This document shows, one piece after another, positions 43,906 to 47,614 of a stretch of 64,000 nt of DNA. The stretch comes from an uncultured Pelagibacteraceae bacterium. GTDB lineage: Bacteria; Pseudomonadota; Alphaproteobacteria; Pelagibacterales; Pelagibacteraceae. Numbering within the stretch: position 1 is the stretch's first letter; each line of letters starts with the position of its first letter. The notes beneath the pieces were generated by a model. It saw nothing but the letters and a program-made list of their open reading frames with translations. It had not been told where the DNA came from and ran no database searches. Position numbers and translations under genes: made by a program. The stretch covers positions 1 to 64,000 of the forward strand of contig CACNCD010000004.1 of assembly GCA_902618855.1 (NCBI GenBank), written 5' to 3'.

Positions 43906-45630
43906 TCATTCCTTAGTTTTTTTTTTAAGCTTATCTGATAACGATGAAAATGGAAGGTTTTTACCTGAAGCTTCAGATCCAAATTTAGATACAGCCTCCT
44001 TATTTTGTAGTTCCTCTAAAAGTTTAATGCTCAAGCTTATCTTTCGTTTATCAATGTCCAGCTCAGATATAGCTGCATCAATTCGTTCTCCACCAACAAA
44101 TCTTCCAGGCCTAGCATCTGCTGCGTTTACGGCTATCTGAGATTTTTTTATGGTGAAATTCATTTCACATCCCTCAGGACTTACAACTAGACCTTTATTG
44201 TCTGAGGATATAACTTTTACTGTTATTGCATCATTGACTTTTTTATTTTCAAACCAGCTTAAAGGATCTTTTTGAGTTTGTTTTAATCCAACTCTTACTT
44301 TTTGTTGATCTGTTTTAATCTCTAAAATTTTTACTTTTAATTTATCACCTTTTTTATATTTTGCTAATTCCTCCTCTGGATTGCCAGTATAACTCAAATC
44401 GTTACAATGCAAAAATCCATCAATATCTAAATTGTCAAGTTTAATATAGATAGCATACTCATTTGTACTATTTATAACTCCCTCAATTTCACTTCCAACA
44501 GAATATTTTTTTTCCAGAATATTATAAGGATTCTCAATAGTAAGTCTGTGAGATATTGCTACCCTTCTTTTTTCTTTATCAATTTCTGTTATTACACATT
44601 CAATTTCATCACCCACTTTAAACATTTTTTTTGCGGAAGGACTTTTTTTAGTCCAACTTAATTCGCTTGAGTGAAGTAGCGTACTTAAACCAGGTTCTAA
44701 CTCACAAAATGCACCAAAGTCCATTAGTTTAACTACTTTTACTTTATATTTTTTGTTTAACTCATAATTTGAAATGTGTTCAAATGGATCAGGAGAAAGT
44801 TGTTTGATGGAACAGCCAACTTGAAGTTTTTCTTTGTCTACTGATATAACTAACAAATCATGCTTTTCACCAATATTAAATATCTCCTCAGGATGATTTA
44901 CTCTAGAGTAACTTATCTCTTGTAAATGTACCAAAACATCTAATTCTGAGTTTACATCGAAGAAACATCCAAAAGAGCTGTACCCTTTGACTATTGCATT
45001 TTTAATTACGTCTCCGACTTTATATTTTTCTACAATTTTTGCTTTATCACCTTTTTTATTTGATGAAATTATTTGTCTTCTTGATACACATGCATTCCCT
45101 CTTATTTTATCAATCTTTATTAAAGCAAATTTAAGTGGTTCGTTCATCAAGTGTGAGATATCTTTTAAAGGCTTGTCAGAAATTTGTGAACCAGGACAAA
45201 ACATTAATGAACCAGTGTCTAAATGTTCTACTATTACTCCACCTTTACATTTTGACGTAATTTTACCATTTATAGGTTCGTTTTTTTCAAAAGCTTCTAC
45301 TAGTTTATCCCAACCTTTTATTTTTTGTGCTTTAGAGGCTGAGACTAAAACTTCACCATTTTTGTCCTCTATTCTTTCTAGCAGGACAGATATTTTTTCT
45401 CCAATTTTAGCTTTATCAATCATACCCATGCTCTTAAGCTCGTTAACGTCAAGCATAGGTTCACTTTTTAAACCCTCAATAAAAAGGAAAACAAATTTAT
45501 CTGTTATCTTAGTAATTTTTCCATCAATAATTTTACCTTCTACAAGATTTTTAGTTTTAGAAAGTTGGCTGTTTAGTAATTTTTCGAACTCTTTTGATGC
45601 AGGTGTTTTTAGGTCTTTGTAAATTTCCAT
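43906..45630 (-). CDS. rpsA: 30S ribosomal protein S1
   Basis: A 574-residue protein with six S1 repeats, visible as recurring GxVxxxxxxGxFVxL-type strands (for example KGYSSFGCFFDV, VVKLMDFGAFCELEPG, GVINSTNEYAIYIKL). It unwinds and recruits mRNA; this matters in an organism where many genes lack a Shine-Dalgarno. It shares one base with cmk and lies 12 bases before ihfB, the conserved cmk-rpsA-ihfB order. Confidence 0.96.
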   Translation of the reverse strand: MEIYKDLKTPASKEFEKLLNSQLSKTKNLVEGKIIDGKITKITDKFVFLFIEGLKSEPMLDVNELKSMGMIDKAKIGEKISVLLERIEDKNGEVLVSASKAQKIKGWDKLVEAFEKNEPINGKITSKCKGGVIVEHLDTGSLMFCPGSQISDKPLKDISHLMNEPLKFALIKIDKIRGNACVSRRQIISSNKKGDKAKIVEKYKVGDVIKNAIVKGYSSFGCFFDVNSELDVLVHLQEISYSRVNHPEEIFNIGEKHDLLVISVDKEKLQVGCSIKQLSPDPFEHISNYELNKKYKVKVVKLMDFGAFCELEPGLSTLLHSSELSWTKKSPSAKKMFKVGDEIECVITEIDKEKRRVAISHRLTIENPYNILEKKYSVGSEIEGVINSTNEYAIYIKLDNLDIDGFLHCNDLSYTGNPEEELAKYKKGDKLKVKILEIKTDQQKVRVGLKQTQKDPLSWFENKKVNDAITVKVISSDNKGLVVSPEGCEMNFTIKKSQIAVNAADARPGRFVGGERIDAAISELDIDKRKISLSIKLLEELQNKEAVSKFGSEASGKNLPFSSLSDKLKKKTKE

Positions 45631-46286
45631 TAATATTTTAGTTTCCTATCCATAATAGCTTTTATTTTTTCAAAGCAACGTTTTCTACTAAGTTTAGTAG
45701 TATTAATCAATATTGAATCTTTTGTTTTTTTTAAAGGACCGTATTTTCTTTGACGGTCGGATTTATCCCTATTTTTAAGGCTTTTTAGAACTTCTTTATA
45801 AGAAATTTTTTTTTTTAGTGATTTATATTCCCTAAATCTTCTCTTTGCTCTAGTTTCAAGGCTGGCTGTGATAAAAAATTTAAACATAGCATCTTTAACT
45901 TGAATAGTAATTATGTCTCTTCCATCAAGAATTGATCCTGCATATCTTGAAGGAGGGGAATAAGCACATTTTTGCTGAAATTTATGAACGACTTTTCTAA
46001 TTTTTTTACTTCTGGCTATTATTGCAGCTGAAGTAGCAACTTTGTCAGATAGAAGAGTTTTATTGTTTAAATCTTTTATTTTTATATTTTTAATTTTTTT
46101 TTTAACTAAAGATAAATTAAATTTTTTAGAGTTATCTAATTTAAGCTTACCAATAAGCCTATAAATTCTACCAGTATCAAGATGTTGGAGGTTATAATGT
46201 TTTGCAATTAGTTTTGCTTGGGTTCCTGCTCCAGCTGCAGCCGGAGAATCTATTGCAACAGTAATGATATTTTTTCTCTTTTTCAA
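45630..46286 (-). CDS. cmk: cytidylate kinase with P-loop lysine replaced
   Basis: A 218-residue (d)CMP kinase fold. Substrate motifs are kept: LDTGRIYR at 36-43, LDGRDIITIQV, KRRFREYKSL lid and DKSDRQRKYGPL. The nucleotide P-loop reads SPAAAGAGTQAK, with alanine at residue 20 where the family has the catalytic lysine (GKGT or GKST). The codon is GCA, so it is not a single A/G error. ATP binding should be weakened unless another lysine substitutes. It overlaps aroA by 4 bases. Confidence 0.85.
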   Translation of the reverse strand: MKKRKNIITVAIDSPAAAGAGTQAKLIAKHYNLQHLDTGRIYRLIGKLKLDNSKKFNLSLVKKKIKNIKIKDLNNKTLLSDKVATSAAIIARSKKIRKVVHKFQQKCAYSPPSRYAGSILDGRDIITIQVKDAMFKFFITASLETRAKRRFREYKSLKKKISYKEVLKSLKNRDKSDRQRKYGPLKKTKDSILINTTKLSRKRCFEKIKAIMDRKLKY

Positions 46287-47614
46287 TTTATTTTTGCTCC
46301 CAAGTCATCTTTTAAAATTTTTAGAAATGATGGAAAAGAAGTTTTAATGGACTCAGGATTATGAATTTTCCATTTTCCACCAAGAGTTAATGCAGCTATA
46401 GTACTTAATGCCATAATTCTATGATCCTTAAAAAAATTTTTAATTTCCATTTTTTTATTCAATTTTAAATTTGGATCTCCATAAATTTTAATGGATTTTT
46501 TTGTGAGCTTTGTTTTAATTCCAATCATATTCAAAATTTTTGATCCTAAATTAAGTCGTGGACTTTCTTTTTGATTTAATTCAGCTAAATCTCTAAAATA
46601 AGATATTCCATTAGCTTTTGCCGCAACCAAAAATATTATTAAAAACTCATCAATAGCACTACTATTGTATTTTATTGGGCAGTTTATCGGTTTGAAAGAT
46701 TTTTTAGACTTAACATGAATATTGGCAGTTTTTTCTCCTTTATAATATTTTTTATTCTTTAAGATTATGTTGGCTCCCATCTTATTTAAAATATCAATAC
46801 AGCCTGTTCTTGAGGAATTAATGTTAACATTTTTAATTATTAGATGTGATTTATTTGAAAGAAGTGTCAGTACAATAAAAAAAGCACTACTACTGATATC
46901 GGATGGAATATTATAATCAAACGAATTAATTTTTTTTTCTCCGTTAATTTCTATAAAATCTATACTTTTTTTATTTATGACTTTAATTGGAAGTTTCAAA
47001 AATTTATATAGTAATTCTGTGTGGTTTCTTGATTTCTTAGCTTTAATTTTTGTAGCTCCAGGGGCATTTAACGCTGCTAACATTATACAACTTTTAATCT
47101 GAGCGCTCCCTTTTTTTTCGAAGTATCTTATAGGTCTAACAAAATTTGTTCCTTGTATATATATTGGTAGTTTAGATTTATTTGACGGATAAAAATTTGC
47201 ACCAAATTCTTTTAGTGGACTTATAACTCTTGAAAAATCTCTTCTTGATAAACTTCTATCCCCAGTTAACTTTATTTTATAAGGTGATTTTATTAAAAGT
47301 GCCAATATTAACCTTCCAAAAGTACCAGAGTTACCAGCATAAATATTTAAATTTTTTCTATATTTAAATCCATTAATACCCACACCGTCAATTTCACAAA
47401 ATTTTTTACTTATATTTATTTTCACTCCTAATTTTTTTAAACCGTTAAGGGTACTTAAAACGTCCTCAGACTGTAATAAATTATATGCTCGTGACTTACC
47501 TATGGCTTGAGAGGCTAGCAAAGCCCATCTTATAGACAAACTTTTATCACCAGAAACACTAATGACTTTTTTAAATGGTTGAATTTTTTTACTTATAAAA
47601 ACATATTTCGGCAT
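46283..47614 (-). CDS. aroA: 3-phosphoshikimate 1-carboxyvinyltransferase (EPSP synthase)
   Basis: A 443-residue enzyme. SGDKSLSIRWALLA (PEP/S3P lysine, serine, arginine), GNSGTFGRLI, GDRSLSRRDFS, SAQIKSCIMLAAL, NIPSDISSSAFF, KESPRL, FKDHRIMAL and TSFPSFL are all identifiable, so the active site is essentially complete. It supplies chorismate together with aroB and aroK at 12-13.7 kb. It lies 8 bases after lptB. Confidence 0.95.
   Translation of the reverse strand: MPKYVFISKKIQPFKKVISVSGDKSLSIRWALLASQAIGKSRAYNLLQSEDVLSTLNGLKKLGVKINISKKFCEIDGVGINGFKYRKNLNIYAGNSGTFGRLILALLIKSPYKIKLTGDRSLSRRDFSRVISPLKEFGANFYPSNKSKLPIYIQGTNFVRPIRYFEKKGSAQIKSCIMLAALNAPGATKIKAKKSRNHTELLYKFLKLPIKVINKKSIDFIEINGEKKINSFDYNIPSDISSSAFFIVLTLLSNKSHLIIKNVNINSSRTGCIDILNKMGANIILKNKKYYKGEKTANIHVKSKKSFKPINCPIKYNSSAIDEFLIIFLVAAKANGISYFRDLAELNQKESPRLNLGSKILNMIGIKTKLTKKSIKIYGDPNLKLNKKMEIKNFFKDHRIMALSTIAALTLGGKWKIHNPESIKTSFPSFLKILKDDLGAKIN

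Follow-up and report, generated by a model that had tools for sequence, protein, structure and literature searches.

A cytidylate kinase without the Walker A lysine

Judging from protein sequences, the cytidylate kinase, or (d)CMP kinase (CMK), of many marine SAR11 bacteria, a large group of them, is without the textbook ATP-gripping lysine of the P-loop. It is a real and conserved variant of the known CMP kinase family, and we hold, with fair though far from full confidence, that it is a genuine working (d)CMP kinase that does without the Walker A lysine, relying on arginines that are all intact and, probably, on a basic residue at position 40.

The gene was examined in a 64,000-nucleotide stretch of DNA from an uncultured Pelagibacteraceae bacterium (the window). 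There, cmk of the lysine-less P-loop type, assigned from profiles and predicted fold, occupies 45630..46286 on the minus strand (657 bases, TTG start, TAA stop, 218 aa), the coordinates being those given by a first-pass annotation of the same DNA. Its upstream neighbor is aroA (46283..47614, minus strand) and its downstream neighbor rpsA (43906..45630, minus strand), both recognized from the gene order and from their likeness between loci; the position of cmk next to rpsA is as that annotation had stated. Residues 13-22 (46221..46250, minus strand) read D-S-P-A-A-A-G-A-G-T, and this altered P-loop was defined from the sequence and a family tally. The position of the Walker A lysine is held by Ala20, with the codon GCA at 46229-46227, which bears out the replacement claimed in the first-pass annotation; what had been overlooked there is that the first glycine of the G-x4-GK[ST] motif is also replaced, by Ser14 (TCT).

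Family identity and predicted fold

The window protein matched the Pfam family Cytidylate_kin (PF02224) at 1.1e-39 and 136.8 bits (cut-off 26). Against NCBIfam TIGR00017 it scored 133.2 bits, just under the 135.55-bit cut-off, which was passed by two other lysine-less proteins, L246 and L247 (153.8 and 139.1 bits). An AF2 model built from 54 sequences had a pLDDT of 87.7 and a pTM of 0.84, residues 121-130 and 181-190 averaging 63. In the structural comparison, the top match of this predicted model was E. coli CMP kinase 2cmk (Z 24.7, rmsd 1.9, 204 residues aligned) and the first 16 rows were all CMP kinases, while Foldseek gave 2h92 as best. The predicted fold is thus the one common to CMP kinases, and fold alone is no proof of activity. 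An identity as adenylate kinase was rejected: PF00406 scored only 23.4 bits, below its cut-off of 26.8, and adenylate kinases reached a Z of 13.8 or less in the structural comparison, against 24.7 for CMK.

Compared with the bacterial (d)CMP kinases (PF02224, TIGR00017; E. coli 2cmk/1kdo and Thermus 3akc), the SAR11 variant has the same predicted fold, length, CMP and phosphate ligands, and aroA-cmk-rpsA order, but it carries Ala, Gly, or Ser for the Walker A lysine, Ser for the first glycine, a Lys or Arg at position 40, and a KKTKDS loop. Furthermore, the position of E. coli R92 is Leu in 134/139 lysine-less proteins. With regard to the Walker A motif G-x4-G-K-[ST], both the lysine and the first glycine were found in 0/139 lysine-less proteins and in 47/47 lysine-bearing ones, and the protein is therefore a variant rather than a canonical (d)CMP kinase. 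No report of a lysine-less CMK was found in the part of the literature that was searched.

Distribution and origin of the lysine-less P-loop

In P-loop NTPases the Walker A lysine counts as indispensable, and an enzyme that has lost it is usually taken to be dead. In a comparison of this position, 245 loci were retrieved, of which 222 yielded a CMK (23 did not), and collapsing identical proteins left 188 distinct ones. With L216 and L220 left out as misaligned or truncated, the final counts were 139 lysine-less and 47 lysine-bearing proteins. Of the latter, 18 belong to the same order and 29 come from outside it, E. coli among them; none of the broken copies (L193, L201, and L208) enters the 139. 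All 139 lysine-less homologues, from Pelagibacteraceae (SAR11), have a small residue at position 20 (Ala 132, Gly 6, Ser 1), so the change in the window is not an isolated mutant. Position 14 is Ser in 138 and Ala in one, while Ser14 occurs in 0/47 lysine-bearing proteins, all of which have Gly. Over the 139 proteins codon 20 is GCA in 71, GCT in 48, GCG in 10, GCC in 3, GGA in 6, and TCC in one, and this synonymous variation indicates that it is in the protein that a small residue is maintained.

Among 133 scored loci, 124 lacked the lysine, 95 of them reading exactly DSPAAAGAGTQAK, and nine had it. Over this and one further comparison, intact homologues with at least 48% identity to the window protein were without the lysine, and those with 41% or less had it. 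Searching 61 relatives with the window protein gave two same-genus classes, at 55-81% and about 35-39% identity. The best 80 of 560 matched loci were all lysine-less, the patterns used having included AIDSPA and the loci thus having been chosen for likeness; these 80 were titled Pelagibacteraceae or Pelagibacterales except for one MAG titled Parcubacteria (L060). Matches were present in 250 of 300 same-genus genomes and in 273 of 298 same-order genomes, falling into the same two score classes, with the P-loop letters read only in the retrieved loci. Farther afield, lysine-less P-loop patterns matched three genomes in a class sample of 385 (the window and two non-CMK matches) and 26 in a phylum sample of 398 (the window and 25 genomes with 26 places, none of them a CMK by HMM search); these patterns would pass over a lysine-less P-loop that is spelled differently, as in L197. 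Among 29 pattern stretches from viral contigs, no relatives were found.

Other SAR11 genomes carry lysine-bearing CMKs (types L198-L200, L202-L206, and L022-L030), which are the nearest relatives of the lysine-less ones in the tree or by identity. They differ from them in having a GK[ST]-, GKG-, or GKN-type P-loop and show 41% identity or less to the window protein, and many of them share the gene neighborhood.

A tree of 71 proteins was computed with the P-loop columns removed, by a quick method that left many inner forks open. A single branch (SH-aLRT 95) set all of its 24 lysine-less rows apart, and the lysine state required one change, against a mean of 20.4 when shuffled. The closest lysine-bearing kin of this clade in the tree are other Pelagibacteraceae. 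Since the lysine-less proteins form one clade on a P-loop-free tree, a single loss of the Walker A lysine within Pelagibacteraceae, in an ancestor of that clade, is probable, with no regain in this sample. The lysine-less state and Gly14Ser go together and are fixed in this one SAR11 clade. An early-branching lysine-less CMK, L197 (3495-4145 in genome G403), has the P-loop DATAGSGSTS and reads LNGRD where others read LDGRD.

Signs of retained function

The CMP-binding motifs are otherwise kept, as the first-pass annotation had also asserted: at twelve further positions conserved in the family, Y42, R43, R97, R123, D124, K136, R146, R149, R150, R173, D177, and R180 were each found in 139/139 lysine-less proteins, and these include the residues aligned with the E. 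coli CMP and phosphate ligands R41, R110, R131, D132, R181, D185, and R188. In the window, R123-D124 (45915..45920, minus strand) align with E. coli R131 and D132, ligands of phosphate and cytosine, and R173...D177...R180 (45747..45770, minus strand) with the LID ligands of CMP R181, D185, and R188; both were mapped by alignment, with the ligand roles as given in PMC7259600. The same annotation's view that the gene is under selection agreed with dN/dS values of 0.036-0.18 over 34 non-overlapping pairs of 85-99% identity, which denote purifying selection. As for the normal position beside rpsA, in 25 of the first 30 loci the lysine-less cmk lies only 0-59 bases from aroA and rpsA, and of the 80 named loci (the best of 560 matches) 79 had the two genes in the retrieved stretch.

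In all six genomes tested (G000, G012, G106, G178, G110, and G142), the lysine-less CMK was the sole full CMK; G012 is a single contig and 100% complete, and G000 is 88% complete. Moreover, in two genomes the cmk between aroA and rpsA is decayed, being broken by 15 stops in G355 and in pieces in G236, and each has an intact lysine-less copy elsewhere. These observations suggest that the lysine-less enzyme is likely still catalytically active. In G104, a lysine-bearing CMK (L263) occupies the aroA-rpsA slot and an intact lysine-less copy lies elsewhere, and the same-genus genomes with L024, L026, L028-L030, and L143 have a lysine-bearing CMK (INSGLLYR or LNSGLLYR type) at a site apart from aroA-rpsA. 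From such genomes, the lysine-less and lysine-bearing CMKs look interchangeable.

Four genomes of 90-92% completeness (G394, G397, G229, and G408) have aroA-rpsA (L276-L279) without cmk, and no CMK was found in them; our guess is that they belong with the genomes whose lysine-bearing CMK is displaced. In G399 (91% complete), the only CMK copy found (L201) is interrupted at about residue 95 by a single frame break, which is either real decay or an assembly error. The four cmk-less genomes and the broken G399 copy count against a strict need for the gene. The check for missing cmk covered 18 same-order genomes, seven of them with weak matches (E about 1e-3 to 1e-5) and 11 taken from the 25 that had no match. 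Missing matches were rejected as a sign of dispensability: 14 of the 18 were also without an rpsA match at E<=1e-80, and the cmk locus is probably unassembled there; the other four are the genomes named above, in which aroA and rpsA adjoin.

Candidate substitutes for the lysine and a proposed mechanism

Position 40 of the 139 lysine-less proteins is Lys in 102, Arg in 34, Met in two, and Leu in one; it is basic in 136/139 of them versus 8/47 lysine-bearing CMKs, the lysine-less proteins probably stemming from a single loss event and so not being independent cases. The residue opens helix alpha-2 and is followed three places on by R43, the aligned counterpart of a ligand of the CMP phosphate; by analogy with Adk Asp33 it would be expected near Mg2+ and the phosphates. 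In the window the segment is D37-T-G-R40-I-Y42-R43 (46158..46178, minus strand), with R40, presumably near the phosphates, as the proposed partial replacement of the P-loop lysine. The two Met40 proteins, L005 and L094, belong to one lineage (98% alike) and carry K35, a site without a basic residue in the other 136; in the Leu40 protein, L051, no nearby substitute for the P-loop lysine is visible. As far as alignment can tell, Lys/Arg40 is the best candidate for the lysine replacement, and a plausible one, although K40 may simply pair with D37.

A basic residue 40 is present in some lysine-bearing CMKs, including L198-L200 (DSGKLYR). These are the closest lysine-bearing proteins by identity (about 40%), although the tree does not place them as sister group; the residue may therefore be older than the loss and have permitted it. 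On the other hand, only 6 of the 18 lysine-bearing CMKs of the SAR11 order have it, and Leu prevails in the rows closest to the lysine-less clade in the tree, which makes its presence before the loss uncertain.

Other basic residues were considered and rejected as stand-ins. K25 varies (K 129, R 5, Q 2, L 2, and E 1 of 139) and is thus no candidate for a universal substitute; K136, R146, and the like are ordinary CMK residues rather than new compensators; and K186, K187, and K189 are near-universal, each with exceptions, in a poorly modelled loop. That loop, P184-L-K-K-T188-K-D-S191-I-L-I-N195 (45702..45737, minus strand; defined by alignment, with low model confidence over 181-190), is nonetheless typical of the clade, whose characteristic features are Ser14, basic residue 40, and K186-K187-T188-K189-D-S191. 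T188 occurs in 139/139 lysine-less proteins, versus Ala in 27/29 non-SAR11 CMKs.

According to PMC7259600, Lys15 of the Thermus CMP kinase P-loop bridges the two beta-phosphates, and Arg153 and Arg171 hold the moving phosphate. Loss of such a bridging lysine should cost rate. A precedent for tolerance is the mycobacterial dephospho-CoA kinase CoaE, whose K14A mutant lost only 19% of kcat, although Lys14 is named in ATP binding in the same paper (PMC3019153). The phosphate-binding arginines of the Thermus and E. coli enzymes, with roles as described in PMC7259600, are all kept at the aligned positions of the lysine-less CMKs. We favor the following scheme. Thr22, Mg2+, and the backbone amides of the P-loop would bind ATP; R43, R123, R149/R150, R173, and R180 would take care of the phosphate in transfer and of the transition-state charge; and Lys/Arg40, at the start of helix alpha-2, would probably make up in part for the missing ammonium.

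A bolder reading, quite possible but held only tentatively, is that the enzyme is a natural P-loop counterpart of the With-No-Lysine (WNK) kinases, a housekeeping kinase of abundant marine bacteria whose positive charge would now sit on helix alpha-2 (K/R40; in one lineage K35) or on a bound monovalent cation. In WNK protein kinases, the ATP-binding lysine is absent from its usual place and is supplied by a neighboring element. Their fold is unrelated, however, and in the SAR11 CMK the relocation is a putative one. An apparently active housekeeping kinase has persisted here without the Walker A lysine throughout a whole clade's history. The SAR11 CMK is thereby a natural test of how essential this lysine is, and its natural series (Ala, Gly, or Ser at 20; K40, R40, or K35 with M40; and lysine-bearing relatives) offers a test of both the role of the lysine and its replacement. 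It also cautions against calling pseudoenzymes from the Walker A lysine alone.

Alternative explanations

SAR11 bacteria are slow-growing, and they might tolerate a slower CMP kinase that is active with no specific replacement, the backbone amides, Mg2+, and arginines sufficing and basic residue 40 being incidental (K-rich proteins, or a salt bridge with D37). The intact arginines and L051, without K/R40, are in line with this, as is the small loss of kcat in CoaE K14A. Both P-loop kinases would then tolerate Lys-to-Ala, although CoaE K14A is an engineered mutant in another family (PMC3019153). Set against it are the bias toward a basic residue at position 40 (136/139 versus 8/47) and K35 where position 40 is Met; furthermore, the same clade has Gly14Ser and the T188 loop as fixed features, which points to remodelling more than to plain tolerance. 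We regard this explanation as plausible, yet clearly less likely than the one favored above.

Cations replace basic residues in other P-loop proteins, and a monovalent cation (K+ or Na+) could sit at the lysine ammonium site, enabled by the small residue 20 and the Ser14 hydroxyl. That residue 20 is always Ala, Gly, or Ser and that Ser14 is present in 138/139 versus 0/47 lysine-bearing proteins would fit such a site, which we nevertheless consider improbable.

A maintained pseudoenzyme that has lost its kinase function, a different kinase having taken over CMP phosphorylation, would account for the absence of a textbook-essential lysine, for the intact lysine-less copy of G104 beside a lysine-bearing CMK in the aroA-rpsA slot, and for the broken sole copy of G399. 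It is very improbable in view of the invariant ligand residues, the lack of a second full CMK in the six genomes tested, and the intact lysine-less copies of G355 and G236, whose resident copy is decayed; the genomes without a good CMK match lend it little, 14 of 18 also being without the rpsA match and the locus probably unassembled. Finally, a sequencing or assembly artefact, for which nothing was found in favor, is practically negligible, since all of the best 80 of 560 loci, from many separate assemblies, carry the change and codon 20 varies synonymously.

Surroundings of extra lysine-less copies

Two intact lysine-less cmk copies each were found in G148 and G112. The extra copies of G112 (L210, 3104-3736) and G104 (L196, 1435-2103) sit directly beside an ATP-sulfurylase gene. 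In G148 the neighbor of the extra copy (L209, 3222-3887) is an APS-kinase gene, itself next to an ATP-sulfurylase gene, with a sulfotransferase also there. In G355, the extra copy (L192, 3250-3912) adjoins a NeuB-family gene, and in G236 (L207, 414-1064) it lies three genes from a cytidylyltransferase gene, with class-III aminotransferase and formyltransferase genes nearby. The surroundings of the G355 and G236 copies are probably surface-glycan regions, and CMP recycling would make sense beside NeuB-family and cytidylyltransferase genes.
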